A stretch of DNA of 64,000 bases from Catellatospora sp. KI3 (GTDB lineage: Bacteria > Actinomycetota > Actinomycetes > Mycobacteriales > Micromonosporaceae): the NCBI RefSeq assembly GCF_029948125.1, contig NZ_JASAMB010000003.1, positions 1 through 64,000 of the forward strand. Direction: 5' to 3'. A program made the position numbers and the translations under genes. Under the pieces are notes generated by a model. It had not been told where the DNA came from. It saw only the letters and a list, made by a program, of their open reading frames with translations, and ran no database searches. This document shows, one piece after another, positions 13,818 through 29,677 of the stretch. Position 1 is the stretch's first letter. Each line of letters starts with the position of its first letter.

Positions 13818-13827
13818 TCCGCACCGG

Positions 13828-13862: not shown

Positions 13863-13884
13863 TTTCGGCCAGGTCACGGGCGTG

Positions 13885-13926
13885 TTGACAGGCCGGTGCG
13901 GGTTGGCGAGACTGGGAGCGCTTCCA
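13885..13926 (+). promoter_or_regulatory. Promoter with CebR-like operator
   Basis: TTGACA (13885-13890), 17 nt, then a weak -10 GAGACT. Over the start point lies TGGGAGCGCTTCCA (13913-13926), which differs at one base from TGGGAGCGCTCCCA, the established operator of the cello-oligosaccharide repressor CebR. It implies cellulose-linked induction of the CBM2 protein downstream. Confidence 0.7.
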
Positions 13927-13999
13927 TCGAACGAGTCGAATGTAAAGATGCCGTCGGCGGAAGCGTCCGCTCCCCTCGATCCTTCCCGGAGGATTCTCC

Positions 14000-14971
14000 A
14001 TGCGTACCCGAAGACTGGCCCCGCTCGCGGTCATGCTCGCCGCGCCGGCACACGCCGCCGACACGGTCCGGCCCACCGCGCCCGGCACGCCCGTCGCGTC
14101 CGACCTCACCGAGACCAGTGTGGTGCTCACCTGGGCCCCGTCCACCGACGACACCGGCGTGCACCACTACGAGGTCTGGCGCCAGCACACCGACTACATC
14201 CAGCAGGTCGCCGCGCCGACCGTCCCCACCGCCACGGTGACCGGCCTGCCGCGCGGCTCGGTGAACCAGTTCTACGTGGTCGCCGTGGACGCGGCGGGCA
14301 ACCGGTCGACGCCCTCCGGGGCGGTCCCGGTGACCACCCTGCCGGGCGACCTCGAGGCCCCCGGCCCGGTCTACTCGCTCGCGGCCTCCGAGATCACCGA
14401 CACCTCGGTCCGGCTCACCTGGCAGGGTCCGTTCTGGGGCGACTTCGCGCTGTTCCGGGTGTACCGCGCGCAGAGCGGCGGACCGCTGACCCCGGTCGCG
14501 ACCACGACCGTCCGCAGCTTCGTGAGCACCGGGCTCAGCCCCGCGACCGCCTACAGCTTCGCGGTGACGGCGGTGGACGCGGTGGGCAACGAGTCCCCGA
14601 CGATCTACCCGCCGCTGGCGGTCACCACCACCGGCGTCGTGACGCCGCCGACCTGCACGGTGACCTACCGGGTCAACAGCCAGTGGGGCGGCGCGTTCAA
14701 CACGCAGGTGCAGATCACCAACACCGGCCCGTCCGCGATCACGGGCTGGACCCTGCGCTGGATGTTCGCCGGCGGCCAGCAGATCTCCAGCCTGTGGAAC
14801 GGCAGCGTGACCCAGACCGGCGCCGCCGTGGCGGTGGCGAGCCTGCCGTACAACGCCGGGCTCGGTGCGGGCGGCGGGTCGCAGTCCTTCGGCTTCCAGG
14901 CGACCTGGAGCGGAAGCAACGCCAGCCCGACCGCTTTCACGCTCAACGGCTCGCCCTGCGAGTCGGCGTAG
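14000..14971 (+). CDS. Secreted FnIII-FnIII-CBM2 cellulose-binding protein
   Basis: A 323-aa exported protein without a catalytic domain. There is a short signal peptide (RTRRLAPLAVMLAAPAHAAD), two fibronectin type III modules (about residues 26-115 and 120-212), and a C-terminal family 2 carbohydrate-binding module (about 218-323, with YRVNSQWGGAFNTQVQITN, GWTLRWMF and the flanking Cys pair). CBM2 modules usually bind cellulose, chitin or xylan through surface Trp residues. ATG 14000 has GGAGG 7 nt upstream. The CebR-like operator fits a role in cellulose attachment or as an accessory to cellulases. A 15-bp terminator follows. A lost catalytic domain is possible, but both ends look natural. 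Confidence 0.88.
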   Translation: MRTRRLAPLAVMLAAPAHAADTVRPTAPGTPVASDLTETSVVLTWAPSTDDTGVHHYEVWRQHTDYIQQVAAPTVPTATVTGLPRGSVNQFYVVAVDAAGNRSTPSGAVPVTTLPGDLEAPGPVYSLAASEITDTSVRLTWQGPFWGDFALFRVYRAQSGGPLTPVATTTVRSFVSTGLSPATAYSFAVTAVDAVGNESPTIYPPLAVTTTGVVTPPTCTVTYRVNSQWGGAFNTQVQITNTGPSAITGWTLRWMFAGGQQISSLWNGSVTQTGAAVAVASLPYNAGLGAGGGSQSFGFQATWSGSNASPTAFTLNGSPCESA

Positions 14972-14980
14972 CGGTCGATC

Positions 14981-15021
14981 GCGTACCCGCCGGTCAGGGT
15001 CAGTCCGACCGGCGGGTACGC
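14981..15021 (+). terminator. Terminator after FnIII-CBM2 gene
   Basis: A perfect 15-bp stem (GCGTACCCGCCGGTC / GACCGGCGGGTACGC) with an 11-nt loop, 9 bp after the stop. The rest of the gap up to 15282 shows no supported gene. Confidence 0.75.
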
Positions 15022-15282
15022 AACCGTCCACGAGCGGGACATGCCGATGGTCAGGGCGTGCGCCGGCTCTGGGCCGGCCTGGCGCCGAGTGCGCGTGAAT
15101 GCGGCGAGGGTGACCCGAGATACCAATGCGGAACAAGATCCGGAATCGCCGTACTCGAGACGGCGAAGTCGGCGCCGTCGGGCTGCGGCATCAGCCGCGG
15201 CGCTGTCTTCCGATAGGGACCGGGCGGCGCTATTGTCCTGATCGACGATCCATTTCGGGCGATCGGTGAGGCGGACGGTGCG

Positions 15283-15726
15283 ATGGTGAATAGAAAGGGT
15301 CCAAAAGGTCACAGGGCAGTTCAGATCCGCGCGGCTCTACTGCTTGGTCTGGCGGCCGCACTCGGGCTTCCGATCGGCACCGCGGCCATAACCGGAGGCA
15401 CGCAGCCCGCCGTTGTCGCGGCCACCGAGCAGGTCGGCGCCATCACGGCTGCGGCCTTGGCGGAGGAGCTCCGGAAGCGGTTCTTCAAGCGAGAGTCGAC
15501 GGAGCGTGGCGCCTCTGGCGCTCCGCCGACGCGTCAGGAGATCGTGGCCGGCCTGTGTGAGCTCATGCACCGAGAACTCGCGGACGTCGAGTTCGGCGCC
15601 CGGACGGCGGAGGCCATCGAAGCGGCCGCTTCAGCCCTGGCCAGGAACAGTCTCCAAGCCTCCGATCTCGAACGACTCGCCCAGATCGCCATTGAATTCG
15701 ATGCGGCCAGGCATGTCGACGACTGA
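15283..15726 (+). CDS. Hypothetical membrane-anchored protein
   Basis: A 147-aa protein with a basic N-terminus (VNRKGPKGHRAVQIR) and one hydrophobic segment (about residues 17-38, AALLLGLAAALGLPIGTAA), either a signal anchor or an uncleaved signal. The rest is soluble and alpha-helical, with LAEELRKRFFKRES and several Ala/Glu-rich helices ending FDAARHVDD. I recognise no family. GTG 15286 is an alternative start. It lies just upstream of the kinase / EccC locus and is read in the same direction as the first kinase, so it may belong to that system, but nothing in its sequence proves this. Confidence 0.55.
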   Translation: MVNRKGPKGHRAVQIRAALLLGLAAALGLPIGTAAITGGTQPAVVAATEQVGAITAAALAEELRKRFFKRESTERGASGAPPTRQEIVAGLCELMHRELADVEFGARTAEAIEAAASALARNSLQASDLERLAQIAIEFDAARHVDD

Positions 15727-15825
15727 GGCGCGAGGCGGTGGAGACCGCAGGATCGATGTACCGTTATGGGCCAGTGCACCATAGCCGTTTGGTGACTTTT
15801 ACCGTCTCCATCGCCGCACGGCCGG

Positions 15826-15841
15826 TTGGTAGAGTCGCGCC
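15826..15841 (+). promoter_or_regulatory. Shared kinase promoter box, copy 1
   Basis: TTGGTAGAGTCGCGCC contains an extended -10 (TGG-TAGAGT) 20 nt before GTG 15856. Closely matching boxes precede the other two kinase genes (19695-19709 and 26904-26918). Confidence 0.45.
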
Positions 15842-15855
15842 GGGAGTGTGGACAC

Positions 15856-17946
15856 GTGACAGGTTTCGAAAACGAGATGCCGCCCGGCTATATGGAGCCG
15901 ATTAACATCGGTCACGGCGGGTGGGCGGATGTCTATCGCTGTACCGATCGGACAGGCAACCGGGTAGCGTTGAAACTGTTCCGGGATCGTCTCGCGGATC
16001 CGACCGATGATCGCGATTTTCGGCGGGAGTTTGCGGTCGCTGCGGCTCTGAGCGCGCATCCGGGGACGATCGGCCTCCACGAGGGCGGCGTGACCGTCGC
16101 CCAGCGGCCCTGGCTGGCACTGGAGTTCGCCAGCAGGGGCAGTGTGGCTGGTCTCATCGCCTCGGTCGGCAGTCTTCCCCTCGACATCGCAATGTGCTAC
16201 GCGGTGAGCATCGCCGACACGCTGGCCTGGGCGCATTCGCTGGCGACGCCCGTCATCCACGGCGACATCAAGCCCGCCAACATCCTGATCGACGCCGCGG
16301 ACCGGCCGCGCCTGACCGACTTCGGGGCAGCCAGGTTCACCCGGGGCAGTCGCTCGGTCACCGTCCACCAGCTCGCCCAGACCCATGCCGCGCCAGAGGT
16401 GCTGGTCGAGGGCAGGGCCACCCCCGTCGCGGACGTCTGGTCCCTGGCGGCGACGCTGTTCGAGATGCTGACCGGCAATCCGCCGTTCATGCTCCGCGAG
16501 GCCGAGGGTGTCGTCGCGTTCGCGAACCGGGTTCAGGCCGGGCTGCCGGCCGACGCGATACCCGCGTCTGTGCCGGAGCAGGTCGCGGATGTCCTCAGGG
16601 GTGGGTTGACGGCCGACCGTGCCGCACGCACGTCGAGCATGGCCGAGTTCGCGTGGATGCTGCGGAGTGCGCAGGAGGCGCTGTCGCTGCCGGTCACGCC
16701 AGGGTGGCCCGCCCCGGCTTCCCGCCCGGCCGATCCGCGGTTCATCACTTACGCCGAGGCGCTGGCGGTCACGACTCACGCCCCGCTCAAGCTCGACAGG
16801 CCCGCGCCCGCAGCCCCGAGGCCTCCGCGCAGCCGTCGACCGGTGCTCGTTGTCGCCTCCATAGCCGCCGTCGGCCTGCTTCTAGCCGGTGCCGGGTTCG
16901 CCTTTGCGGTCGGCGGCGATGAGGCTGAGCCCCCACGGAGCCTCGGCGCGACCGCGACACCGGCGACCAGCGCGACCGCTACGGCCACCGCACCGCCCCA
17001 GCCAAGCGCGACGGTGCCGAGCATCGCACCTTCGACCGGTGGCGTACCGACCACGCCGACCGTCGCCCGTACGAGTGCCGGGCCGGCCGCGAACGTGCCG
17101 CCGCCCGCACCGGCGGTCCCGGGGGTGATCTCGACGTTCTCGATCGCGGACTCCAGCGGAGTCGCCGGATTGAACGGCAAGCTCGCGTTCTCCATCACCC
17201 CGCCGGCGAGCACGGCGGCGATTCAGCGCTACGAACTCGAGTACACCGGCGACGCCACGCCCGACCTGACTTCCACCGCGACCTCGGGCCAGATACAGGG
17301 CCTGACCAACGGAACGACGTACTCGGTCCGAGTACGGGCCTGCGCCAGCCAATGCGCCGCCTGGTCCGGTTCCCGCGCAGGTCAACCGTATGGGCCGGTG
17401 CCCAACCCGGGCAGCGGCGCGTCCAAGTCGGGTGACCGCCAGATCCAGCTGTCGTGGAGTGCGCCGGGAACCAATGGGCGGCCGCTGTCGAGGTTGGAGA
17501 TCAGGGTCGACGGCGGTGGGTGGGAGAACGTCGGGGTGGGCAACGGAAGCCGGATCGTGGGCAACGGACCCAACCAGGGTCACTCCATCCAGGTGCGCGC
17601 CTTCGATCAGGCGGGCCAGGAGAGCGGCACCACCTCGGCGAACGCCACCACCTCCGGTTCGTGGGTGAACGTCAGTCCGGGCAGCAGCGCGCAGGGGCAG
17701 CCGGGCTGCTCATCGTCCGCCTGCCGCTACATCACGGTGGAACTGCGCAACTTCGCGTCCAACACGTCGTATTCATGCTCGTTCAACTCCAGCCTGGGCA
17801 GTGACGGGTTCATCACCCGGAACTTCACCACGGACGGCAACGGCAACGCCGGTCCGAGCCAGACGCCCAACTACTTCGGCGTGGCGAGCGGATGGGTCAC
17901 GGCGACCTGCGGAGGTGTCGCCGGCACACGCAGCCCCTGGCTCTGA
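15856..17946 (+). CDS. Transmembrane Ser/Thr kinase with extracellular FnIII domains
   Basis: A 696-aa PknB-like kinase. The cytoplasmic kinase domain (about residues 10-275) has a Gly loop GHGGWADVY, the ATP-site Lys in VALKLF, catalytic IHGDIKPANILI (Asp137; HGD replaces HRD), DFG, and APE. A juxtamembrane motif ITYAEALAVTTHAPLKL is shared with the other two kinases here. One membrane helix (about 328-355) is followed by a Thr/Pro-rich linker, two FnIII-like modules (about 415-600) and a Cys-containing C-terminal domain (CSSSACRY, TATCGG). Start GTG 15856 has GGGAG 9 nt upstream and fits the N-termini of the related kinases. It converges with kinase 2, 32 bp apart. The ectodomain probably senses an extracellular polymer or partner. 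Confidence 0.9.
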   Translation: MTGFENEMPPGYMEPINIGHGGWADVYRCTDRTGNRVALKLFRDRLADPTDDRDFRREFAVAAALSAHPGTIGLHEGGVTVAQRPWLALEFASRGSVAGLIASVGSLPLDIAMCYAVSIADTLAWAHSLATPVIHGDIKPANILIDAADRPRLTDFGAARFTRGSRSVTVHQLAQTHAAPEVLVEGRATPVADVWSLAATLFEMLTGNPPFMLREAEGVVAFANRVQAGLPADAIPASVPEQVADVLRGGLTADRAARTSSMAEFAWMLRSAQEALSLPVTPGWPAPASRPADPRFITYAEALAVTTHAPLKLDRPAPAAPRPPRSRRPVLVVASIAAVGLLLAGAGFAFAVGGDEAEPPRSLGATATPATSATATATAPPQPSATVPSIAPSTGGVPTTPTVARTSAGPAANVPPPAPAVPGVISTFSIADSSGVAGLNGKLAFSITPPASTAAIQRYELEYTGDATPDLTSTATSGQIQGLTNGTTYSVRVRACASQCAAWSGSRAGQPYGPVPNPGSGASKSGDRQIQLSWSAPGTNGRPLSRLEIRVDGGGWENVGVGNGSRIVGNGPNQGHSIQVRAFDQAGQESGTTSANATTSGSWVNVSPGSSAQGQPGCSSSACRYITVELRNFASNTSYSCSFNSSLGSDGFITRNFTTDGNGNAGPSQTPNYFGVASGWVTATCGGVAGTRSPWL

Positions 17947-17978
17947 CTCCTGGAGCGCTCAGATCACGGGAGGTCAGG

Positions 17979-19622
17979 TCAGCACTGCGGTGCATTCCGC
18001 TGAGACCACCACGTCGTTCGCAGCGACCGGAGTGCTTCCAGGGCCGAAGTCACGTCAACCGACGGGTTGAGGCTCTGGAAGCTGTACTGGTTGCCTGGAT
18101 CAGTGGCGGAGATCTCCTGCCAATTGACGTCGTCACCCGGCGGCAGCCCCTGTACGTAGGTCATCGCCGAGTAAGGCGGACTGATGCTGCCGGTCGGGCT
18201 GTCGCTGTGGCGATTGGTACGGAGGAACAGGCCACCAGGTGTGCGGAAATTCGGGTAGTCCGCGTCGGCGGGCCAACCGAGTTCGAAGGTCCAGGACTTC
18301 GCCCCGGAGGCGTAGTAGCGTCGAACCGTTCCGAGCACGCCGTCCACGGTGTCACGCGCGCACCATGGCGGTGGCGGTTCGACGACGACGACTCGTGGGC
18401 TGGGGCTGGTGTTCGCCTGCGGATTCGACGGACCGGTTGGACTGGCCGCACTGGACGGGGCGGTCGAGGTGCCGCTGCGCTTCGGCACCGACTGGGTGGG
18501 CGCCGCAACCCGCGCGGCATCTATGCCCTGGCCGGCGGGTACAGCTGTGTTGTCGGAGGCGTAGTTCGCGAAGGCCATGCCGGCGCCCGCGACGACGGCG
18601 ATCGCGGTGACAGCGCCGATCTTGATCGTCAGCGAGCGTGACCCGCGCCGTGGCGCATCAGGTTTGCCAGCAGGATCCAGATTGAGCGGCCGTGCCGTGG
18701 TCCGTGCCAGCGCCTCGGTGTAGGTGGTGAAGGGCAGCTCCCTACCGGCCTTCAGCTGCTGCTCCTGGCGCGTGGGTGCGTGTCCGAGGGCCGACTGGGC
18801 TGCTCTGAGCTCCGTTGCCATCGCGGACATGGTGGCCGTCCGCCCGGCGCGGTCCACAACGAGCCCGGCCCGGATGACGGCGGCGAGAGCGTCAGGGACG
18901 CTCGCAGGGATGGCGTCTGCGGGCAGTCCGCTGCAGACCCGGTCGATGAAGGCGCCCGGTCCCTCACCGGGCTTGGGGACGAACGGCGAAACCCCGGCGA
19001 GCATTTCGAAGAGCATGGCGGCCAGCGCCCAGATGTCGGAGGAGGGGGACGCACGACCGTCACGGAGCACCTCCGGGGCCGCGTGAGTCTGCGTGAACTG
19101 GGCGAGGGTGATCGACTGGCGGCTCCCGAGCTGGCCGGATACCCCGAAGTCGCTTACCAAGGGTCTACCGCTGTCGTCGAGCAGCACGTTCGCGGGTTTG
19201 AGGTCGCCGTGGACCACCGGAGACGGCAGGGAATGCGCCCACGCCATCGTGTCGGCAAGGCGTACGGTGAGGTCGATGGCGTGCTTCACACCGAGCGCAC
19301 CACCTGAGTGTTTGATCAGGTCCGCCAAGGTGCCGCCGGCGGCCAGCTCCATCGCGAGCCAGGGCCGTGCTGAGGCGGTCACTCCGGCGGCTCGCACTCC
19401 GATCACTCCGGGATGCCTGCTGAGCATGGCGGCAGTGCGGCACTCCTGCCGGAAGCCCTCGGCGCCGGCTGCCGGGTCGCTGAGGCGCTGGTGGAACAGC
19501 TTGACCGCGACAAGGCTGCCGTCGGACTGGTCGACGCAGCGGTAGACCTCGGCCCATCCACCTGAACCGATGTGCTCGGGCTGGCGGTAGCCTGGCGGTA
19601 GATCGTTGATGTCACCCGTCAC
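17979..19622 (-). CDS. Transmembrane Ser/Thr kinase with unique ectodomain
   Basis: A 547-aa relative of the neighbouring kinases. The kinase domain (about residues 10-275) has GSGGWAEVY, VAVKLF (Lys41), VHGDLKPANVLL (Asp140, again HGD rather than HRD), SDFG, and APE. The shared juxtamembrane motif FTTYTEALARTTARPLNL follows, then one membrane helix (about 333-355), a Ser/Thr/Pro-rich spacer, and an outer domain of about 130 residues bounded by Cys (PWCARDTVDG near its start, RNAPQC at the end) that I do not recognise. GTG 19622 is chosen: GGAGG lies 9 nt upstream, whereas ATG 19631 would abut it. It is divergent from the EccC-type gene and shares its control region. Confidence 0.88.
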   Translation of the reverse strand: MTGDINDLPPGYRQPEHIGSGGWAEVYRCVDQSDGSLVAVKLFHQRLSDPAAGAEGFRQECRTAAMLSRHPGVIGVRAAGVTASARPWLAMELAAGGTLADLIKHSGGALGVKHAIDLTVRLADTMAWAHSLPSPVVHGDLKPANVLLDDSGRPLVSDFGVSGQLGSRQSITLAQFTQTHAAPEVLRDGRASPSSDIWALAAMLFEMLAGVSPFVPKPGEGPGAFIDRVCSGLPADAIPASVPDALAAVIRAGLVVDRAGRTATMSAMATELRAAQSALGHAPTRQEQQLKAGRELPFTTYTEALARTTARPLNLDPAGKPDAPRRGSRSLTIKIGAVTAIAVVAGAGMAFANYASDNTAVPAGQGIDAARVAAPTQSVPKRSGTSTAPSSAASPTGPSNPQANTSPSPRVVVVEPPPPWCARDTVDGVLGTVRRYYASGAKSWTFELGWPADADYPNFRTPGGLFLRTNRHSDSPTGSISPPYSAMTYVQGLPPGDDVNWQEISATDPGNQYSFQSLNPSVDVTSALEALRSLRTTWWSQRNAPQC

Positions 19623-19694
19623 GGCTTGCATCCTCCGACGTCGGCGGCTTCCGGTGCGAGGTGGCGCGGCCTGCCCCGATCGGCGCCCGTCCAT

Positions 19695-19709
19695 GGCGCA
19701 ATCTATCAA
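19695..19709 (-). promoter_or_regulatory. Shared kinase promoter box, copy 2
   Basis: Read on the minus strand, TTGATAGATTGCGCC contains an extended -10 (TGA-TAGATT) and matches the boxes before kinases 1 and 3. It lies about 75 nt before GTG 19622. The rest of the 182-bp gap must also hold the promoter of the EccC-type gene, possibly at GGTAGAAAACACT (19728-19740). Confidence 0.45.
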
Positions 19710-19804
19710 TCGTTGCGACGCCGTGAAGGTAGAAAACACTGGCGTAACGGCGGAGGCGGATCCTGCCGCACGCGGCCAATGTCGACGGTGAGGATCGATC
19801 TGTC

Positions 19805-22800
19805 GTGCTGGCCGGAGTGAAGTTGGGCGCTATGTGGATTCCGCTGACCGTCGCCGTCGGCGGTGACAGCCGTGACCTGCATATGCAGGCGACACCCGAG
19901 TCCAGGGTCAGTGATCTCGAGGACGCCGTCGCCAGGCACGTCGGGCTGCGCGGGGCGGTGCGTCTCGCTACGGCGCGAGGCATGCTCGACTCCTCGTCGG
20001 ATCTGATCGCGGCCGGAATCCGCCCGGGCGTGGTCGTCCAGGTGGTCGGTGAGGACGCCCCGACCGGCCGACCCCGCGCGACCGCACGCAGGCAGCTGCG
20101 GGTCACCGGAGGAATCGACGCAGGTTCGATCATTCCCCTTCCGCAGGAGGGCACGCTGTCGATCGGCCGCGGCCCGGAATGCGACATCCGGCTGAGTGGG
20201 ACGGCGGTCAGCCGTCGCCATGCCGAACTCTTGTGCGGGCCGAGCGGAGTCCGACTCAGCGATGTGGGCTCCGCCAACGGGACGGCGGTCGACGGGCAGA
20301 AGATCGTCGGCCCGGTCGACCTGGCACCTGGGCTCAGGGTGCAGATCGGCGACCACCGGCTTGTCCTGCACGACGCCGCCCTGAACAGTCATCCGGCCGC
20401 ACGGCTGGTAGACCTGCGGGACGGCACGCTCCGGCTGGACCGCCAGCCCCGATTCCCGGAGCCCGCGGTGACGACCGTCCTGTCGGCGCCGAAGCCGTTC
20501 GACGGTTCGGCGCGAACCCCGATGGCGATCGGCGCCATGGCTGTGACCGGCCTGCTCGGTGGTTTCGCCGCATACCTCGTCTACGACAACGCCGCGTTCC
20601 TGTTGCTGTCCGGGATCAGCATCGCCGGAGGTGCGCTGGGCGGCTTGTACACCCGGGTCAAGCACGGGAGAGGACTGCGCCGAGCGCAGCGGGATCACGC
20701 CGCCGCGGTCGTCGCGCACCAGGCGGAGGTGCTGACGACGGCGCAGCAGGAGCGGTCACGGCGCCTGCGGGAGGCCAGCGACCCGGCGGAGGTCGTGTCC
20801 GTCGCCGCGACGCCCGCAGCGCCGCTGTGGCAGCGGCAACTCGCCGACCCTGACTTTCTGCGCGTACGGATCGGCCTGGCCGACCTCCCCAGCGACCTCA
20901 CGATTCATCAGCCCGACGGAAGCCGGGTCCACCACCCGCTGTCCGACGTGCCGCTGACAGTCGACCTGGCTGCCGTCGGCACAGTGGGCATCACCGGCTC
21001 CCGGGCGGCCGCCAGGGCACTGGCCAGGTGGCTGGTCACACAGGCCGTAGTACAGAGCGGGCCGTCGGATCTCCGCGTGGCGGTGCTCAGCCGCCCGGGC
21101 GATCCCGATGCGGCAGCGGGGTGGGACTGGACCCGCTGGCTGCCGCACCTGCGGGTCGGCTCGGCGGCCCTCGCCGATGTGGGCGCCGACGAAGCAAGTC
21201 TCACCGTGCTGGTCGACCGGATCGCCGACCTGGTGGCGCAGCGGGCGATGTCCGGGGCGCGCCCGGGTGGGTCGACTGACCCGCGACCGCACCGGCCGCA
21301 GTGGTTGGTGGTCGTGGACGATCTGTCATCGCACGACTCGGTGAAGCTCAGCGAAATCGTATCCAAGGGACCGGACCTGGGCGTTGCCGTCATCGCGGTC
21401 GGACAGCTGCCGAGCCGATGCCCGGTGGAGGTGTCGTTCGCCGATGATGCGCTCGCCATCGTCCGCCGTGCCGGTCAGGCGGAGCTGCACGGTGTTCTCG
21501 TCGACCAGATCAGCCCGGCCGTGGCGACGCGCGTCGCACGTGACCTGGCCCCCCTGCACGATCCGCAGTTGGCCACCGGCGCCTCGGGCCTGCCCACCCG
21601 CGTGTCGCTGATCGACCAGCTGACCCCGGCCGCGCTGGAGCCCGCTGCCCTCGAACGCAACTGGCAGCGCACCCCCCGGCAGACCCGGGTGGTGGTGGGG
21701 CAGACGGCCGCCGGGCCGCTGCACGTCGATCTGCTGAGCAACGGCCCGCACGCCCTGGTCGCGGGCGCCACCGGCTCCGGCAAGTCGGCGATGCTGCAGA
21801 CGATCGTGGCGAGTCTGGCCATCGCCAACCGACCCGACGAACTCGGCTTCATCCTCGTCGACTTCAAAGGCGGAGCCGCATTCGCGCCGTTCGACGGCCT
21901 GCCGCACATCCTCGGCAGCATCAGCAATCTGGACGGCCACGCCGTCATGCGGGCTCTCGACTCGCTTCGGGGCGACCTCCAGCGTCGCCAGCGCTACCTG
22001 GCCGCCGCAGGAGCGGCTTCGCTCACCCGATACCACGAGCTCGCAGATCGGGGTGACCTGCCCGCCGGCAGCCCTACCCGGCTGCCGCGGATGTTCGTCG
22101 TCATCGACGAGTTCGCGATGCTCAAGGAGGGCGTGGCCAGTGAAGTCCTGGACGGGCTCGTGAACATCGCCACCGTCGGCAGGTCGCTGGGGGTGCACCT
22201 GGTCATCGGCACCCAGGCTCCACGCGGGGTCATCCCGCCGCAGATGCGTCCCAACGTCAACCTCAAGGTCGCCTTCCGTCTCGACGCCGACCATTCTCAG
22301 GACGTCATCGGCGTCGGTGACGCCCAGCACCTGGCTGGCAGCGGACGTGGCTATCTGCGCCGGGGCGATGACGGAGACCTGGTGCCGTTCCAGGCCGCGT
22401 TCGTCGGCGGAGCCACCCGTCGGCGACCGGGAGCCGGGGTGTCCCTGCTGGAGGTGCCGTTCGTCCGCTTGGGGCATCCGCCGTCGGAGGTCGGGACCGC
22501 GAGTGTCGCAGACATCGAGGTCATCGTCCGCGCGGTCCAGGAGGCGGCGAAGTCCGGCGGAGTACGTCCCGTCCCGCCGCCCTGGCTGCCGGATCTGCCG
22601 ACGCTGGTGCCGTTGGCGCAGTTGCCGGACACGTCCGAGCCGACCGACGACCTGATCCTCTGCTACGGCCAGGAGGACCAGCCGGAGCTGCGGGCGCAGC
22701 CGGCGGCATCCTGGAACATCAGCACAGGCACGCATCTGCTCGCCGCCGGACGCCCGAGATCCGGCCGCAGCACTCTGCTGCGCACCCTCGCCGCGTCGGC

Positions 22801-24250
22801 TGCCCGATACGGCACACACCGGATCAGCCTCTACGTCATGGACTGCGGCGGCACATTGGGTGATCTGGCCTCGCTGCCGCACTGCGGCGCGGTGGTCACC
22901 CAGCATGAGATCGAACGCGGTGCCCGACTACTCGACCAGTTGGACCGTCTGGTGACAGACCAGGGCAGGAGCCCGGCCGGAACGCCGGTGGGCCGCCGTG
23001 TTCTGCTGCTGATCGACGACTGGGAGACCTGGGCGCAGACCTACGGCGAGGTCGACAACGGCGCCCTGCTCGGCCGACTGGTCAATCTCTTCCGGCGGGG
23101 ACCGGCGGCAGGCGTCCACATCGCGGTGACGGGCGGGTCGTCGCTGCTGACTTCGACCCAGACCCGCGCGTTCGCCGAATCGGCACAGGATCGGCTGGCC
23201 CTACCGTTCGAACCGGACGACTACCGCTGGCTCGGCATGCCGGCGACGGCGATTCCCAGTGAGGCAGGCCCCGGCCGAGCGGTGTACCTAAACGCGCCGT
23301 ACCGTGCTGTCCAGGTCGCGGTCGTGGGCGTCGATGCACACCCGGCCGCGCAAGCGGCCTCACTGCGCGCGCTTGCGGCCACCGCAACGGCCGTGCCCGG
23401 CCACACGCCGTGGCGGGTGGATCCGCTGCCGCACAGCATCAGCGTGGCTGAGGCCCGACGGCTCCCGCGAACGACGGCAGCCAGCGAACGCTGGCTGCCG
23501 TTGGGGGTCGGCGGGGACCACCTGGCGCTGCTCGGCGTCGACATCGAAGCTGAAGGGCCTGCCGTCTACGTCACGGGGGAGCGGCGCAGCGGACGCAGCA
23601 ACGCCCTGTTGGCAATGGGTATCGACCTGGTCGAACGCGGCATTCCGGTCGTGGCCATCACACCGAACCGTGCCTCGCCACTGCGCGCGCTCAAGGACGT
23701 CGCGGTGGTGCTGTCCCCCCAGCCGCCGACCCGGCGGATGATCCAACTCGCCCTGGCCGCGGTCGAGCCGCCGTATGTCGTGCTCGTGGACGACGCCGAG
23801 CAACTCGCCCGCACCGAGGCGGAGGCGCCCCTGCGGGAGGTGCTCGTCCACGGACAGGAGCCGTGGTCGGCGATCGTGGTCGCCGCCGCCATCGACGACC
23901 TTGCCCACCCAGCGCCCGGGACACTGCTCGGCGAGGTCGGGCGCAGCGGCGCCGGAATGGTCCTGGCACCCAGGACCGCTCGGCCGCAGTTGTTCGGTTC
24001 GATCCTACGGATCCCGCCGGCCTATGTCGGCAGTACGGCGCCGGGACGCGCGGTCGTGGTCAGCCGGTCCGGAACGGCACCGGTCCAGGTGCCGCTGGCC
24101 GACGCTGCCGATGTGACCGGTCTGCGCCGAATCGCGCCTGGGCTGGGCCAGCTGCTCGAACAGGCGAACGCGATCGCCGGGGAGGCTCCGGCGACCGTGG
24201 AGCGGTTGCGCGACATCATCGGCCAGGTGCGAGCTTCGACGGTCAGCTGA
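19805..24250 (+). CDS. eccC: EccC/EssC-type FtsK-SpoIIIE ATPase with FHA domain
   Basis: A 1481-aa motor protein of the type VII secretion (EccC/EssC) family, which recognises WXG100 substrates and powers export. Order: a ubiquitin-like N-terminal region (about residues 9-85), an FHA domain (about 96-185; GRGPECDI at 121, SRRHAEL, GSANGT), two membrane helices (about 238-283), and three FtsK-type ATPase domains. D1 has an intact Walker A, GATGSGKS (Lys660), and Walker B IDE (768-769). D2 and D3 carry Arg for Lys (GRPRSGRS, Arg988; GERRSGRS, Arg1264) with LLIDD and VLVDD Walker B motifs. An FHA domain binds phosphothreonine, so the three kinases alongside are obvious partners. Start may be GTG 19805, GTG 19817 or ATG 19832. 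Its end overlaps the convergent 198-aa gene by 8 bp. Confidence 0.92.
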   Translation: MLAGVKLGAMWIPLTVAVGGDSRDLHMQATPESRVSDLEDAVARHVGLRGAVRLATARGMLDSSSDLIAAGIRPGVVVQVVGEDAPTGRPRATARRQLRVTGGIDAGSIIPLPQEGTLSIGRGPECDIRLSGTAVSRRHAELLCGPSGVRLSDVGSANGTAVDGQKIVGPVDLAPGLRVQIGDHRLVLHDAALNSHPAARLVDLRDGTLRLDRQPRFPEPAVTTVLSAPKPFDGSARTPMAIGAMAVTGLLGGFAAYLVYDNAAFLLLSGISIAGGALGGLYTRVKHGRGLRRAQRDHAAAVVAHQAEVLTTAQQERSRRLREASDPAEVVSVAATPAAPLWQRQLADPDFLRVRIGLADLPSDLTIHQPDGSRVHHPLSDVPLTVDLAAVGTVGITGSRAAARALARWLVTQAVVQSGPSDLRVAVLSRPGDPDAAAGWDWTRWLPHLRVGSAALADVGADEASLTVLVDRIADLVAQRAMSGARPGGSTDPRPHRPQWLVVVDDLSSHDSVKLSEIVSKGPDLGVAVIAVGQLPSRCPVEVSFADDALAIVRRAGQAELHGVLVDQISPAVATRVARDLAPLHDPQLATGASGLPTRVSLIDQLTPAALEPAALERNWQRTPRQTRVVVGQTAAGPLHVDLLSNGPHALVAGATGSGKSAMLQTIVASLAIANRPDELGFILVDFKGGAAFAPFDGLPHILGSISNLDGHAVMRALDSLRGDLQRRQRYLAAAGAASLTRYHELADRGDLPAGSPTRLPRMFVVIDEFAMLKEGVASEVLDGLVNIATVGRSLGVHLVIGTQAPRGVIPPQMRPNVNLKVAFRLDADHSQDVIGVGDAQHLAGSGRGYLRRGDDGDLVPFQAAFVGGATRRRPGAGVSLLEVPFVRLGHPPSEVGTASVADIEVIVRAVQEAAKSGGVRPVPPPWLPDLPTLVPLAQLPDTSEPTDDLILCYGQEDQPELRAQPAASWNISTGTHLLAAGRPRSGRSTLLRTLAASAARYGTHRISLYVMDCGGTLGDLASLPHCGAVVTQHEIERGARLLDQLDRLVTDQGRSPAGTPVGRRVLLLIDDWETWAQTYGEVDNGALLGRLVNLFRRGPAAGVHIAVTGGSSLLTSTQTRAFAESAQDRLALPFEPDDYRWLGMPATAIPSEAGPGRAVYLNAPYRAVQVAVVGVDAHPAAQAASLRALAATATAVPGHTPWRVDPLPHSISVAEARRLPRTTAASERWLPLGVGGDHLALLGVDIEAEGPAVYVTGERRSGRSNALLAMGIDLVERGIPVVAITPNRASPLRALKDVAVVLSPQPPTRRMIQLALAAVEPPYVVLVDDAEQLARTEAEAPLREVLVHGQEPWSAIVVAAAIDDLAHPAPGTLLGEVGRSGAGMVLAPRTARPQLFGSILRIPPAYVGSTAPGRAVVVSRSGTAPVQVPLADAADVTGLRRIAPGLGQLLEQANAIAGEAPATVERLRDIIGQVRASTVS

Positions 24251-24839
24251 ACGCCCCGGCGACGTCAGCGGCGGCCCGGTGCATCCGCACCCCGGCGGCG
24301 ATCGCGTCGAACACCTGGACCAGGTGGGCCCTCTGGTCCAGGGCCGGTGTGTCGAAGCTGAGCACCCAGGAGGGGTGCAGATCGGCCGCGAGGACGTAAT
24401 CGGCTGACAGCAGCACGATCCGCCCGATCGCGATGACGGGCGCACTGAGCCACAGGTATCGCAGCGCCGTGCCGGTGGTCAGGTTCAACTCCACCACCGG
24501 TCCGGCCTCGTGGTCGCTGCGGTCGACTGCGGCATATGACGCGTAGGGCAGCAGTGAGAGCGACGCCGTCACGAACTTCGAAGACCGTGGATCGTAAGCG
24601 GCCCCGCCGGCCAGCAGCAGTGCTCCCGCGGTCGCCGATACCCGGGCGAGTCGGCCGAGTTCGGCTTCCAACTCCGCTGCGGCCTGGCTGCCAGCGGGCA
24701 GGTCGCCCGCGGCGCCGACAGCGGCGGCCAGGTCATCCTGGTAGTGCGCTGGGCGGATCGACCACCAGCCCGGGGGCAGGGCGAGCTCGAAGGCCAGTTC
24801 CTGACCACTGGCGACGGTGACGCGGGTCCAGTCGTTCAC
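24243..24839 (-). CDS. Type VII locus accessory protein, possible chaperone or immunity
   Basis: A 198-aa soluble protein, last gene of the four-gene WXG100 unit. It has no signal peptide. It opens with LAFELALPPGWWSIRPAHYQ, and its C-terminal third has short beta-like stretches ending PSWVLSFDTPALDQRAHLVQ then VFDAIAAGVRMH. That ending recalls the Mog1/PsbP-like fold (LpqN, DUF1795), used elsewhere by effector chaperones, but this is only a pattern impression. GTG 24839 overlaps the stop of the 418-aa WXG-headed gene, so it is made together with it, as expected for an effector's chaperone or immunity protein. No EspG signature could be confirmed. Confidence 0.6.
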   Translation of the reverse strand: MNDWTRVTVASGQELAFELALPPGWWSIRPAHYQDDLAAAVGAAGDLPAGSQAAAELEAELGRLARVSATAGALLLAGGAAYDPRSSKFVTASLSLLPYASYAAVDRSDHEAGPVVELNLTTGTALRYLWLSAPVIAIGRIVLLSADYVLAADLHPSWVLSFDTPALDQRAHLVQVFDAIAAGVRMHRAAADVAGAFS

Positions 24840-26092
24840 GGCTTCGCCTGCCGATCCTCGCCGGTCACGGTCTCAGGAATATCGAGGGACTGGTCGACCG
24901 TATGGTATTTGTCCAAAGCGGTGACGCCGTCTCCGACGAGGACGCGCGTTTCGTCGCCGGGAGGCAGCCAGCGGTCGATCGTAGGCAGCTTGTCATACCG
25001 CTGGGCGTGATCGATCACTTCGTCCAAGTGCTTCTGCTCGGCGTGGGCCTGCCTGGGGTGCAGAAGATCGTCTACGGCTTTGCGCGTGGCCTGCGGCACA
25101 TGTTTGTCGGCGTCGGCCGCCGCCGCGTTCTTGGCGAACTCGCGGGCGTTGTGGGCGTCTGTGCCCGCTGCCTGTGTGAAGGTGCGGGCCGCCGCCGAGT
25201 CCGCGGGCATCGCACCGGCGATTCTCGTCGCCTCGACCGCACCTCCGCGTGCGGCCTTCGAACCGGCGTTGAGCGCCGACGCGGCGCGGGCGCTTCCACT
25301 TATGACCTTGGCACCGGGCGCGGCGAGCGTGATCGCGTTCCAGAAGGTGTCGGTCGCGAACTCGCCCAGAGTCTCCCGGCCGTCGATCAGCAACACGACC
25401 GAGCAGATCTCACTGACGATCGCGACTCCGATGGTGACCGCGGCCAGGACCGGTCCGATCACTTCGCCTACCACGGGTATCGCGAGAGCGATGAGGGTGG
25501 CGCCGGCCAGCCAGGGCTCGATCTTCTGAATGATCTCTTTGAGCTCGGCGATATGGTCTACCAGGTGGTGCCACATGCTGTGCTCGTACTTCTTGACCGC
25601 TGCGATCGACTCGGCAAGCCGGTCGGCGCACTCGCGGGCGTCCCGGGTGGCCTGCTGGGCGATGACATCACGCCGGTGCTGCAGCGGAACCAGTCCGGGT
25701 GCGGTGGTGCCGAGCGCATGCATGACCGCTTGCTCCTGCGGCAGCTGCGCACCCGCGTCGTCGGCGGCGGCCGCGACCCGCACCGCATCGTCCTGACTGT
25801 GCTGGAGTCTGCGCAGCCAGCCGTGGAGCGCGTCGGCCGCGCCTTCGTAGGCGAGCTGCGCGGCGACCAGGCGGGGCCGTAGTTCACCGACAGTGGTCCG
25901 GAAGGCGTCAGCCGATCTGCCGGTCCACAGCGCCACGTCGTGCCCGATGGCGTCCAGCACCGCCAGCGCGTCACCGACCTCGTCGGTGGTCGTGCGCAGT
26001 ACGCCGATCACCGCACCGATCTGGGCGACATCGCCAGGGGCTGGATCTCCACCGTGCAGGTACGCCGAGACCCGCCTGACTCTGAGGTTCAC
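24836..26092 (-). CDS. Large WXG-headed putative type VII substrate
   Basis: A 418-aa protein. The N-terminal ~190 residues are long helices with a WXG turn (LWTGRSADAFRTTVGELRP, about residues 56-74), as in type VII effectors and LXG-like heads. The middle (about 194-240) is strongly hydrophobic and Gly-rich (LAGATLIALAIPVVGEVIGP, VLAAVTIGVAIVSEI), consistent with a membrane-inserting hairpin. The C-terminal ~170 residues are hydrophilic and unlike any toxin domain I know (AEQKHLDEVIDHAQRYDKLP; GDGVTALDKYH). GTG 26092 overlaps the upstream stop codon. Position after two small helical WXG partners supports a secreted effector. No nuclease or protease motif is visible. Confidence 0.75.
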   Translation of the reverse strand: MNLRVRRVSAYLHGGDPAPGDVAQIGAVIGVLRTTTDEVGDALAVLDAIGHDVALWTGRSADAFRTTVGELRPRLVAAQLAYEGAADALHGWLRRLQHSQDDAVRVAAAADDAGAQLPQEQAVMHALGTTAPGLVPLQHRRDVIAQQATRDARECADRLAESIAAVKKYEHSMWHHLVDHIAELKEIIQKIEPWLAGATLIALAIPVVGEVIGPVLAAVTIGVAIVSEICSVVLLIDGRETLGEFATDTFWNAITLAAPGAKVISGSARAASALNAGSKAARGGAVEATRIAGAMPADSAAARTFTQAAGTDAHNAREFAKNAAAADADKHVPQATRKAVDDLLHPRQAHAEQKHLDEVIDHAQRYDKLPTIDRWLPPGDETRVLVGDGVTALDKYHTVDQSLDIPETVTGEDRQAKP

Positions 26093-26373
26093 TCTGCCAC
26101 CCGGAAAGACGCGACTATCGAGTTCTCCACGTCGGCATAGCAGCCCGACACTTCACGCATCCTGGCGGCGAGTGCCGCAGCCTGGCCGCCGATGTCCTTG
26201 ATCATGTCGCGGCCGTGGGACTTGAGACTGCCCAGGCGATCGTCGACTGGATGCGGCATCGCACCGTGCGGCAGCGACCCCAGCCGAGCGGTCAGGTCCT
26301 CCAGGCCGGCCGCCGCATCGGTCAGTCGCGTCGCGGCATCGCCGATTAGTTGCGGATCGAAGCTGCCGCGCAC
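26089..26373 (-). CDS. Small WXG100-like partner protein
   Basis: A 94-aa all-helical protein of ESAT-6/CFP-10 size. The usual WXG turn is not kept (LGSLKSHGRDMIKDIG lies in the central region), but the C-terminus has CYADVENSI, a YxxxE export-type motif matching that of its neighbour. It is probably the heterodimer partner of the 96-aa WXG100 protein. Start GTG 26373 is 6 bp from the preceding stop, and its own stop overlaps the next GTG. No other domain is present. Confidence 0.75.
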   Translation of the reverse strand: MRGSFDPQLIGDAATRLTDAAAGLEDLTARLGSLPHGAMPHPVDDRLGSLKSHGRDMIKDIGGQAAALAARMREVSGCYADVENSIVASFRVAE

Positions 26374-26379
26374 GCCCGC

Positions 26380-26670
26380 TCAGCCGCCGAACGACTTGGT
26401 GATGGACCCCTCGGCCGACTCGTAGGCCCTGGCGGCACCGCCCAGTGCGGCGCTCATCGCGGCCAGGCTCTCCTGCAACGGCACCACCGATCGCTCCCAC
26501 TGCTCGCGAGTGGTCTGGAACGACGACGCCGCAGGTCCCGTCCACGCGTTGGCGAGCTGGTTGGCGGCCGCGCGCAGCGCGGTGATCGCCTGCTGGAGTT
26601 CGTCGGCTCGCTGGCGCGTCGCTGACGCGTGATTTTCGATCTCGGCAGTGTCGAACACAGTGCCCGGCAT
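26380..26670 (-). CDS. WXG100 family protein
   Basis: A 96-aa WXG100 (ESAT-6-like) protein, the small secreted substrate or helper of type VII systems. The central turn is AWTGPAASSFQ, with flanking helices, and the C-terminal motif AYESAEGSI fits YxxxE. Length is typical. ATG 26670 has GAGGAG upstream with good spacing. It is first of four coupled minus-strand genes ending against the EccC-type gene, so pairing with that ATPase is likely. It is expected to form a helical-hairpin dimer with the 94-aa protein. Confidence 0.92.
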   Translation of the reverse strand: MPGTVFDTAEIENHASATRQRADELQQAITALRAAANQLANAWTGPAASSFQTTREQWERSVVPLQESLAAMSAALGGAARAYESAEGSITKSFGG

Positions 26671-26903
26671 ACTGGCTCCTCACGATCGGGTGCGACTTGG
26701 TCACCCCAGGTTATGCGTCAGTCGGCGGGCCAGCGTCCCCCAACCGTCCGATCCGGTGTCGGAGGTGGGTCTGGAGTGTCGGCCACGATCGGCTGTCGCT
26801 CTTCAGTGGACCGGAAGCTGCCCGGACATTCACCAGCGGCGATCATGCCAGCTCCCATCGGCCGTCGCGCCAGGGTTTTCTGGCCCCCCGGCGCGGACAC
26901 TCC

Positions 26904-26918
26904 TTGGTAGGTTGCACC
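26904..26918 (+). promoter_or_regulatory. Shared kinase promoter box, copy 3
   Basis: TTGGTAGGTTGCACC contains an extended -10 (TGG-TAGGTT) about 45 nt before ATG 26959 and matches boxes before kinases 1 and 2. The rest of the 288-bp gap 26671-26958 also serves the WXG100 unit. Confidence 0.45.
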
Positions 26919-26958
26919 AGCAGCATCGAGGTCACCGACTCCGGGGGACGCAGAAGCC

Positions 26959-28650
26959 ATGACGGTGCACGATTTCCCTCAGGGTTACAGCAACCCGGAA
27001 TTCATCCGTGCAGGCGGTTGGGCCCGGGTGTTCCGCTGTGTTGAAGACGCCACCGGGCTCGAGGTGGCCGTCAAGCTCTTCCTTCACCCTCTTGAGGATC
27101 CGACCCGGGGCGCCGAGCCCTTCCGGGGCGAGAGCCGCGTGGCCGCGATGCTCAGTGCGCATCCGGGTGTCGTGGCGCTACGGGCCGCCGGAATCACCGC
27201 AGCCGGCCAGCCATGGCTGGCCATGGATTTGGCGCACGGCACGGTCGGGGATCTGATCAAGGAACGTGCGGCAGGCGGTCTCGGCACGGAACGGGCACTG
27301 GACCTGGCCGTCACGGTCGCCGACACTCTGGCATGGGCACATTCGCTGCCCTCACCGGTGCTGCACGGTGACATCAAGCCCTCCAACATCCTCCTCGACG
27401 ACACCGGTCGGCCGATGTTGAGCGACTTCGGTGTCTCCACCCACCTCGATACCCGCCGCTCGGTCACGGTGGCTCAGTTCACGCAGCCCTATGCCGCACC
27501 CGAGGTGCTCAGCGACGGCCGTGCCTCGGTCGCCTCGGACGTCTGGTCGCTCACGGCGGCCCTCTTCGAGATGCTGACCGGCGCACCGCCGTTCGCCGTA
27601 CAGCCTGGCGAGGGGCTGATGGCGTTCGTCAAGCGAGTCGGTTCAGGACTGGGGCCGGACTCCATTCCGCCGGCTGTTCCAGTCCCAGTCCAGGACGTGC
27701 TGCGGGCGGGTATGGCGGTCGACCGAACTCTGCGCCTGGCCACGATGAATGACCTGGCGCGGCACCTGCGCGCGGCGCAGCGGTCGCTGGGCCTGCCGGT
27801 CACGCCACCGCCCGGTCCGGTGACAGCGGCGCCGGACATCCCTTTCACCACATACGCTGACGCCGTCGCGTTGACCACCGCCCGGCCGCTGCGGCTGGCT
27901 GAACCGATGTCCGCGCCGCCGCCCGCACGACCCCGGCGCAAGGGTGTTCTCGTCGCATCGCTCAGCGCGGTGATCGCGCTCGCGGGCGCTGGTGTCGCCA
28001 TCGGTGCTGCCGCGGGCGGCGACACTCCGGTCGCCGGGCCATCCGCCATCGGGTCGCCCGCGTCGGCGGCTCCGGTCCTGCCTGAGATGTCACCGCAGGC
28101 CGGCCAGGGCTCGTCGGTGGCGGATCCGAGCGGGAGCACCACCGCGCCTCCGGCCACCACGACCACCGTCGTCATCACCGTGCCCGGCAGCGGAACAGTT
28201 CCGACGGCGGGCACTCCGTCCAGGGCGGCCTCCGCCAAACCGGCCACCCAGCAGACACCCGGCCCGGTGACCACCACAGCCGCGCCACCGCCGCCGCCAC
28301 CACCCCCGCCGCCGTCATTCCAACTGCAATCAGGCGAGCGGCTGTCGCCAGGAGAGAAGCTCCTGTCGACCAACGGCAGATACACATTGATCATGCAGTA
28401 CGACGGCAACCTCGTGCTCTACCAGTGGCCGACCCCGATCTGGTCATCCTGCACTGCCGGGCACGACGGTGCCTTCGCCATCATGCAGAGCGACGGCAAC
28501 TTCGTCGTCCGCGACTCACAGCCCTACTACGCCACGGGCACGGCCGGACATCCGTACTCGGTGCTCCAGGTGCAGGATGACGGCAACATGGTCGTCTACG
28601 CCGCGGGACATGTCGCGGTATGGGCGTCCAAGCAGCATCCCGGATGCTGA
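26959..28650 (+). CDS. Transmembrane Ser/Thr kinase with bulb-type lectin ectodomain
   Basis: A 563-aa kinase related to the two above. The kinase domain (about residues 8-275) has RAGGWARVF, VAVKLF (Lys39), LHGDIKPSNILL (Asp138, HGD form), SDFG, and APE. The juxtamembrane motif FTTYADAVALTTARPLRL is conserved. One membrane helix (about 330-355) is followed by a Thr/Pro-rich linker with a run of prolines, then a bulb-type (B-type) mannose-binding lectin domain (about 450-563) with the repeats QYDGNLVLY, QSDGNFVV and QDDGNMVVY. These Q-x-D-x-N-x-V-x-Y sites bind mannose in plant and bacterial lectins, so this kinase may sense mannose-containing glycans. It is divergent from the WXG100 unit. 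Confidence 0.9.
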   Translation: MTVHDFPQGYSNPEFIRAGGWARVFRCVEDATGLEVAVKLFLHPLEDPTRGAEPFRGESRVAAMLSAHPGVVALRAAGITAAGQPWLAMDLAHGTVGDLIKERAAGGLGTERALDLAVTVADTLAWAHSLPSPVLHGDIKPSNILLDDTGRPMLSDFGVSTHLDTRRSVTVAQFTQPYAAPEVLSDGRASVASDVWSLTAALFEMLTGAPPFAVQPGEGLMAFVKRVGSGLGPDSIPPAVPVPVQDVLRAGMAVDRTLRLATMNDLARHLRAAQRSLGLPVTPPPGPVTAAPDIPFTTYADAVALTTARPLRLAEPMSAPPPARPRRKGVLVASLSAVIALAGAGVAIGAAAGGDTPVAGPSAIGSPASAAPVLPEMSPQAGQGSSVADPSGSTTAPPATTTTVVITVPGSGTVPTAGTPSRAASAKPATQQTPGPVTTTAAPPPPPPPPPPSFQLQSGERLSPGEKLLSTNGRYTLIMQYDGNLVLYQWPTPIWSSCTAGHDGAFAIMQSDGNFVVRDSQPYYATGTAGHPYSVLQVQDDGNMVVYAAGHVAVWASKQHPGC

Positions 28651-28732
28651 CGGCTTCGATGTATTGCGGCGAGCCGGTGCGGGCGGGGTCTGGCAGCGAG
28701 CCGCCTGATTGGGCTCACGTACCCTCCAGTTC

Positions 28733-29677
28733 ATGATCGAACGGGTGCGGGTCGCGGTCGCGGGAGTCGGGAACAACACGTCGGCGCTGGTGCAGGGGAT
28801 CGCCCTGTACCGCCAGACCGGCAACCTGGTCGGCATCCGCAAGCCGGTGATCGACGGCCTGGGGGTCGGTGACATCGACTTCGTGGCGGCCTTCGCGACG
28901 TCCGAGGAGAAGCTCGGCAAGGACCTGACCGAGGCCGTCTTCCTGCCGCCCAACAACTTCCCGCGCCTGGACTGCGACCTCCCGCCGGCAGGTGTCCCGG
29001 TTACGAGGGGGCTCGTGGACGAGTCCGAGGTGGATCGGGTGGCGGCGGCGCTGGCGGGTGCGGAGGTGCTGCTGTACGCGGCTCCGAGCGGTCGGCCGCG
29101 GACGGCTCTGGCCTACGCCGAGGCGGCCCGCAGGGCCGGGGTCGCGTTCATCAACACCACGGCCGACCCCGTCGCCCGCGATCCCGAGTCGCTGGCCCGC
29201 TTCGAGGCGGCCGGGCTGCCGCTGGTCGGTGACGACCTGGCGAGCCAGTTCGGCACCTCGGTGGTGCACGACGCGCTGCTGCGGCTGCTCGCCGAGCGCG
29301 GTATGACCCTGGTCAGCTCGTACCAGGTCAACCTGGGCGGCACTGAGGACTTCCGGAACCTGGTCGAGAACCCGAACACCAAGAAGCAGTCCAAACTGAA
29401 CGCGCTGTCGGGGGCGGGCCGGGTGGAGCTGGCGCCGCTGGGGTACCTGCCGCACCTGGGTTCGCACAAGGTGGCCCATCTCAACATCGAGGCGCAGGGC
29501 TGGGGCGGGACGGCGGTGAGCCTGGACGTGAAGCTCAAGGTGCACGATCCGAGCGGGGCCGCCGGAGTGAACATCGATCTGATCCGGCTGGCGGCGAGCG
29601 CCCTGCGCGGCGGGCGCGGCGGTTACCTCACTGAGGCGTCGCCGCTGCTCAAGTCGGTTCCTGGCAGCGCTGTCTGA
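28733..29677 (+). CDS. ino1: Myo-inositol-1-phosphate synthase family protein
   Basis: A 314-aa member of the inositol-3-phosphate synthase family, which converts glucose-6-phosphate to inositol-3-phosphate with NAD for phosphatidylinositol and mycothiol. The Rossmann start is VAVAGVGNNTSALVQGI, close to the family's GNCASSLVQG. Later landmarks are GLVDESEVDRVAAAL, LVGDDLASQFGTS and VNLGGTEDFRNL (family NxGGxxDF). It is shorter than the usual ~360 aa and may be a divergent paralogue. ATG 28733 has TACCCT 7 nt upstream and no ribosome site, so it is probably leaderless. Confidence 0.82.
   Translation: MIERVRVAVAGVGNNTSALVQGIALYRQTGNLVGIRKPVIDGLGVGDIDFVAAFATSEEKLGKDLTEAVFLPPNNFPRLDCDLPPAGVPVTRGLVDESEVDRVAAALAGAEVLLYAAPSGRPRTALAYAEAARRAGVAFINTTADPVARDPESLARFEAAGLPLVGDDLASQFGTSVVHDALLRLLAERGMTLVSSYQVNLGGTEDFRNLVENPNTKKQSKLNALSGAGRVELAPLGYLPHLGSHKVAHLNIEAQGWGGTAVSLDVKLKVHDPSGAAGVNIDLIRLAASALRGGRGGYLTEASPLLKSVPGSAV

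Follow-up and report, generated by a model that had tools for sequence, protein, structure and literature searches.

Within a 64,000-nucleotide stretch of Catellatospora sp. KI3 (contig NZ_JASAMB010000003.1, positions 1 to 64,000; hereafter the window), the region from 15283 to 28650 encodes three receptor-like Ser/Thr kinases, a motor ATPase of the EssC class that carries a ubiquitin-like (Ubl) and an FHA domain at its N terminus, and a four-gene WXG100 unit. We read this region as a reduced type VII secretion system (T7SS) locus that is accessory and probably horizontally acquired, that resembles T7SSd in composition, and whose motor would be gated by the kinases; to this reading as a whole we give a probability of about one half. 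Reduced, kinase-linked T7SSs have recently been described, and the locus is a variant of this kind, not a separate one. A preliminary description of this DNA had thought that such a composition might be undescribed, but Garrett, Higginson and Palmer described T7SSc-j in 2024 (PMC11217815), and the accessible text of their paper gives T7SSd and T7SSe a WXG100 protein, an FHA-bearing ATPase and a membrane kinase, and already raises phosphothreonine control.

Composition of the locus

The genes lie in the order K1 (forward), K2 (reverse), ATPase (forward), acc198, lwxg418, p94 and wxg96 (all reverse) and K3 (forward). Three transmembrane Ser/Thr kinases, an FHA-bearing ATPase of EssC/EccC type and a four-gene WXG100 unit had been named in the preliminary description, and all of them are present where it had placed them. 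The ATPase gene (19805–24250, forward; 1481 residues; PF01580, E = 1.5e-45; FHA model PF00498, 58.9 bits against a cut-off of 20.7) is divergent from K2 (17979–19739, reverse; PF00069, E = 5.6e-37; transmembrane segment around 372–390), with 65 bp between the two open reading frames (ORFs). K3 (26959–28650, forward; transmembrane segment around 330–348) is in turn divergent from wxg96, at a distance of 288 bp, and K1 (15826–17946, forward; PF00069, E = 1.1e-36) stands at the left end. The kinase model matches all three kinases strongly (E from 6e-37 to 4e-33); their start codons, including the exact start of K1, are uncertain.

The secretion unit begins with wxg96 (26380–26670, reverse), which encodes a WXG100 protein with a WTG motif (PF06013, E = 3.4e-14). 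It is followed after 6 bp by p94 (26089–26373, reverse), a WXG100-like partner without WxG that has a relative in L041, the nearest related locus found, and that matches a wxg model in which p94 itself was included. p94 overlaps lwxg418 (24836–26092, reverse) by 4 bp, and lwxg418 overlaps acc198 (24243–24839, reverse) by the same length; given this tight packing, the four genes read as one operon. No Pfam or NCBIfam family matched p94, lwxg418 or acc198 over its cut-off. The lwxg418 product, a WXG/LXG-headed protein and candidate substrate, reached 24.6 bits with PF21725 (cut-off 27), has two central hydrophobic segments and groups with the WXG-large proteins in clustering. Both wxg96 and p94 end in a C-terminal YxxxE, and their L041 relatives carry YxxxE and YxxxD; we take YxxxE/YxxxD to be the general type VII export motif.

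Acc198 falls in an unnamed family that recurs at T7SS loci (hhalign probability 98, E = 2e-13), and its AlphaFold model is fairly confident (mean predicted local distance difference test score, pLDDT, of 83). Among the 48 ORFs matched by the family model, 28 lie no more than 150 bp from a WXG or WXG-large ORF, and one member, spotted by eye and then put into the model, is flanked by wxg and WXG-large genes in the Bombiscardovia T7SSd. The family profile gave seven matches up to E = 10 among PDB sequences, the best at 0.096, and six of the seven have names of designed proteins or fusions. Single family members found nothing better than E = 0.02 in Pfam, and we do not claim a chaperone fold of Mog1/PsbP or Eag type for the family.

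The three kinases are 45–53% identical to one another. K1 has one hydrophobic segment (around residues 340–358) and an fn3 ectodomain (PF00041, 38.5 bits), the K3 ectodomain is B-lectin-like with three QxDxNxV repeats (PF01453, 23.7 bits, below the cut-off of 32.4), and no known family was recognised in the ectodomain of K2. In all three the catalytic Asp and the DFG motif look intact by eye. The catalytic loop of each reads HGD in place of HRD, as it does in the single kinase of L041 (L041:16081–17841). The 51 kinases listed in the fetched loci divide into 37 with HRD, four with HGD, one with HLD, one with YRD and eight without a match to the pattern; ten congeneric kinases fetched with K2 all have HRD. 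When 11 genomes of the genus were searched with K2 as the query (not K1 or K3), its best matches were K3 (53%) and K1 (50%), the next best reaching at most 38% over the kinase part. A small ORF to the left of K1, s147 (15283–15726, forward), has a hydrophobic N terminus and no family, and is a doubtful member of the locus.

The motor ATPase and its ubiquitin-like domain

The motor scores 399 bits as EssC (TIGR03928), above 340 as EccCa and 233 as EccCb, all three under the models' own cut-offs, and its top-scoring solved relatives are 4nh0 (named FtsK/SpoIIIE), YukB and EccC5. It consists of a Ubl domain (residues ~10–81), an FHA domain (~96–190), two hydrophobic segments (~241–281) and three FtsK-like ATPase modules. 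Its earlier designation as a triple ATPase holds insofar as there are three P-loop-like sites; only the first is canonical (GxxxxGK[ST]), and the other two have R for K. The ATPase carries a single FHA stretch, which retains R122, S136, H139 and N158, the residues of the phosphothreonine site. Whole-protein and profile searches found GarA, OdhI and FhaA as the nearest solved FHA domains, with the adenylate cyclase-like FHA domain 3gqs ranking first in the profile search.

The Ubl domain ahead of the FHA domain was overlooked in the preliminary description. When 30 N-termini were combined into a profile, its positions 1–75 matched ubiquitin-fold chains (2mlb, E = 3.6e-6; ISG15, 5.5e-5; Dsk2, 3.9e-4). 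Matches of single N-termini to the YukD model PF08817 were weak, occurring in 4 of 30 (best 0.006) and none over the cut-off; the window ATPase's own N-terminus gave no match to this model, and a piece from locus L126 matched it at 9e-4. AlphaFold predicts a beta-beta-alpha-beta-beta unit (pLDDT 91–96 over residues 1–70 of the Ubl-FHA piece) followed by an all-beta FHA domain, with a mean pLDDT of 89.5 and a predicted template modelling score of 0.60 for the piece. The Ubl model matches 120 of 138 loci, and in 118 the motor is recognised by this model and the FHA model alike; these counts include the 30 N-termini used to build the models and one locus present twice. The domain is thus borne by the motor here, whereas an older survey (PMC1779556), in its accessible text, reports the YukD domain of actinobacteria as always fused to a membrane domain with 12 transmembrane segments.

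A similar fusion is found in one T7SSd locus. Locus L113 of Bombiscardovia coagulans has the T7SSd order of wxg, kinase, a TsdH-like gene (by eye), an Ig-like TsdI and ATPase. Against a Ubl profile built without L113, the N terminus of its ATPase (L113:9836–10570) scored 25.1 bits, compared with 17.2 for the best of 2000 shuffles. When other ATPase ORFs were split into 1463 chunks and scored likewise, 23–31 bits were reached by four, all of them overlapping Ubl domains in over-long ORFs, and the next scored 11.8. Judged by this profile match, L113, the one T7SSd locus examined, carries as a fusion to its ATPase the ubiquitin-like protein that T7SSd has been reported to lack. The L113 ATPase has a degenerate FHA site of its own, and a separate FHA protein is encoded downstream.

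Genomic setting and related loci

Third-position G+C in the nine locus genes ranges from 0.74 to 0.86, in every case under the 5th percentile (0.90) of the 34 other window genes longer than 200 residues, whose median is 0.955 and whose lowest value, 0.829, overlaps the locus range at the edge. The interval between the flanking orthologues (13818–28732), which contains the whole locus and a CBM2/fn3 gene at 14000–14971, measures 14,915 bp here versus 1,113 bp in the congener G123, where the flanking orthologues are 95% and 86% identical to those around the locus. Three other congeners fetched showed no synteny with the flanks and are uninformative on presence or absence. Among the 11 genomes of the genus, the locus ATPase was found in the window's own genome alone; four others have distant ATPases, 35–36% identical. 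With its unusual codon use, and missing from the corresponding site in G123, the locus behaves as an accessory island by these sequence comparisons. A single congener does not tell whether the locus was gained here or lost there; codon use speaks for gain, and the locus was probably acquired horizontally. No tRNA was found in the window, no Rfam match within 13500–29000, and no convincing repeat in either boundary stretch, each searched separately and not for a repeat common to both ends. At the far end of the window (60587–64000, reverse), a large ORF runs past the window end and looks STAND-type NTPase-like at one end by eye, with no Pfam match at E = 0.001.

A canonical ESX system elsewhere in the genome, which the preliminary description would have counted against its proposal, is present by content and split across two contigs. 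Contig C56 (273000–279000) encodes EccB and a mycosin over cut-off, EccE at 104 bits (cut-off 108) and two WXG100 proteins, and contig C16 (30800–36400) encodes EccC, each half of which passes its cut-off, and EccD, likewise above its own. The C16 EccC ORF has no FHA or Ubl match. The window had earlier been said to lack EccB, EccD, EccE and MycP; this is true of the nine locus proteins, and the rest of the window genes were not scanned for them. The EssB pseudokinase model TIGR03926, which matches a B. subtilis control, found nothing in the whole genome, and EsaA gave no match in the locus and one on another contig, at 40 bits under a cut-off of 122.

Related loci of the Ubl-FHA-EssC kind were found in Streptomyces, Nonomuraea, Microbacteriaceae and other Actinomycetota (L041–L159 and L187–L205), many of them with acc and WXG-large genes. 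L041, whose ATPase is 52% identical, retains ATPase, acc, WXG-large, p94 and wxg genes, and L072 (31%) shares the order of divergent kinase, ATPase and convergent acc, WXG-large, wxg and wxg. Of 110 loci in a first sample (the window's included), 28 have a kinase no more than 5 kb from the ATPase, as do 9 of another 19 loci (one a duplicate); 171 K2-like kinases in ten other genus genomes (90.6 Mb) give a background of ~0.03 expected per locus, a rough figure that rests on differing searches and is possibly a two- to threefold underestimate. In 11 of 138 loci, no more than 50 bp separate a kinase ORF from the ATPase ORF. Of the four top K2 matches in the ten other genus genomes (111–112 bits), three have another ATPase gene of the family within 5 kb; further matches follow at 111 bits and below, and two of the three ATPase-adjacent ones are equal-scoring copies in G123. 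These counts support a recurrence of kinases beside FHA motors well above the rough genome background.

The FHA site is degenerate in 82 of the 113 first-sample loci. A membrane protein without a Pfam family (cluster 2, e.g. L109:7606–9102) lies near 48 of these 82 ATPases and near none of the 31 with an intact site, and a kinase is found within 5 kb in 1 of 47 loci with this protein versus 27 of 63 without it. The idea that it is an EssB-like pseudokinase replacing the kinases was dropped; by eye the protein is LysM-like and not kinase-like. Separately, a TadA-like cluster occurs in 22 loci, such as L094, L100, L106, L118 and L143 (Nonomuraea, Actinomadura, Herbidospora), where Tad/Flp pilus operons (gene names by eye) lie beside family ATPases, mostly with degenerate FHA sites. 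T7SSg and T7SSh of Bacillota likewise adjoin Tad genes, according to the accessible text of PMC11217815.

A proposed kinase-gated motor and its alternatives

From the encoded parts we infer a plausible scheme of kinase-gated secretion. The ATPase would export the wxg96/p94 pair and lwxg418, with acc198 acting as a putative adaptor or chaperone. K1–K3, each with its own ectodomain, may sense something extracellular and would phosphorylate threonine on themselves or on a locus protein; the motor FHA domain could then dock on the phosphothreonine and so switch assembly or export. Such docking would be the active-kinase, phosphorylation-dependent counterpart of the phosphorylation-independent contact between the EssB/YukC pseudokinase and the EssC/YukB FHA region in T7SSb, where, in the accessible text of PMC9600267, the FHA region of B. 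subtilis YukB binds the pseudokinase domain of YukC, a kinase-fold membrane protein. Kinase-dependent docking of the motor FHA domain appears to be the most likely mechanism. Rather unlikely, in our view, is the further idea of a multi-input, phosphothreonine-gated machine on a single island, in which three kinases of one type but with different ectodomains would converge on one motor that bears its own phosphothreonine reader and ubiquitin-like subunit, and any of several cues would license export; on this idea the fused Ubl domain would be general among actinobacterial EssC-type systems, T7SSd among them.

The link between kinases and FHA motor, proposed in the preliminary description, has fared unevenly. 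In its favour, kinases recur near such motors, the FHA site residues are intact, and the whole set lies in one interval that is short in G123. An association of intact FHA sites with kinase neighbours failed in a second sample. In the first (119 ATPases, from which 6 short N-termini were dropped and 3 more had no flank at 5 kb), a kinase lay within 5 kb in 17 of 31 intact loci versus 11 of 79 degenerate ones (Fisher test, 4e-5); this count follows an inspection by eye that moved L063 and L077, judged to match the motif by chance, into the degenerate class, and without that step it was 17/33 versus 11/77 (9e-5); an earlier, cruder FHA motif had given 12/25 versus 17/89. Pooling both samples, with the duplicate included, gives 21 of 42 versus 16 of 87 (3.5e-4).

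Several observations weigh against kinase gating. The 19 loci of the second sample went in the opposite direction, with a kinase near 4 of 11 intact and 5 of 8 degenerate loci (p = 0.37; 4 of 7 degenerate without L189, which is the same locus as first-sample L089, identical over 900 residues). Eight phylogenetically independent pairs, about 2 in favour and 0–0.2 against, were not significant, and we do not rely on an intact FHA site as a predictor of kinase neighbours. Even in the first sample, 14 of 31 intact loci have no kinase within 5 kb. The three kinases, which the preliminary description expected to be conserved with the motor, are not so in the nearest relative: L041 has one different kinase 4 kb off, together with an FHA-like ORF (the latter by eye). 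Finally, no EssB-, EsaA- or TsdI-type envelope component was found in the locus to account for the passage of substrates through membrane and wall.

T7SSd, known from Actinomycetota including Olsenella and Bifidobacterium, comprises TsdA, TsdC with a conserved FHA site, the kinase TsdD, TsdH and TsdI in the accessible text of PMC11217815. The locus shares with it few components, a WXG100 protein (TsdA), an FHA-bearing EssC-type ATPase with an intact site (TsdC) and a membrane Ser/Thr kinase (TsdD), but has three kinases where T7SSd as known has one, and a Ubl domain fused to the motor where that text lists no ubiquitin-like part. With T7SSb (Ess/Yuk, Bacillota) it has in common an EssC-like motor with an N-terminal FHA domain; T7SSb has two FHA domains, EssB and a separate ubiquitin-like protein, whereas the locus has one FHA domain with an intact site, active-type kinases and a fused Ubl domain. 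The WXG100 pair and EccC-type ATPase recall T7SSa/ESX, from which the locus differs in the absence of EccB, EccD, EccE and MycP from its proteins and in the FHA and Ubl domains of its motor. A literature search at title and abstract level, with subscription journals mostly outside its coverage, met no description of this exact arrangement, and found the term T7SSd in PMC11217815 alone.

It is possible, though on balance unlikely, that the kinases are receptors multiplied in tandem that have only the island in common with the secretion unit, which would be constitutive or read by housekeeping kinases. The set does look like a local expansion, given that the best genus matches of K2 are K3 and K1; the nearest ATPase relative, L041, is without K1–K3, and none of the kinases shares an operon with secretion genes. 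Against this view stand the short divergent gaps between K2 and the ATPase and between K3 and the wxg unit, the recurrence of kinase neighbours at such ATPases and the gene order repeated in L072.

Improbable, in our judgement, is a swap-in motor that uses the EccB/EccD/EccE ring of the canonical ESX system. The ring proteins are encoded on C16 and C56, with the mycosin, EccC and two WXG100 proteins, and the locus has none; but on the motor the EssC model outscores those for EccC, the motor brings a Ubl domain of its own, whereas ESX motors encounter this part on EccD (PMC11217815, accessible text), and the C16 EccC has neither FHA nor Ubl match. We think it very improbable that the locus is a strict T7SSd with TsdH and TsdI encoded elsewhere in the genome, even though WXG100, FHA-ATPase, kinase, acc-like and WXG-large genes are common to it and the Bombiscardovia T7SSd. 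The L113 TsdI model has no match in the locus, where no ORF besides the ATPase is of TsdI size, and neither has the TsdH model, for a short variable protein that could be missed; the test is weak, as these single-sequence models, applied to 40 loci and not to the whole genome, matched L113 alone. With three T7SSd features present, TsdI not found and a Ubl domain that the published type lacks, we do not file the locus as a strict T7SSd; it may work like one.

If a fused Ubl domain holds for more T7SSd loci, it would correct the published T7SSd parts list and place EsaB/YukD at the motor N terminus. The reading of kinase signals by FHA domains on type VII motors has so far been a proposal only, in the accessible text of PMC11217815. 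If the kinases do gate the motor, the Catellatospora locus would be small and genetically separable enough for a direct test of whether FHA domains of type VII motors read kinase signals, and a model for several receptors feeding one secretion machine.

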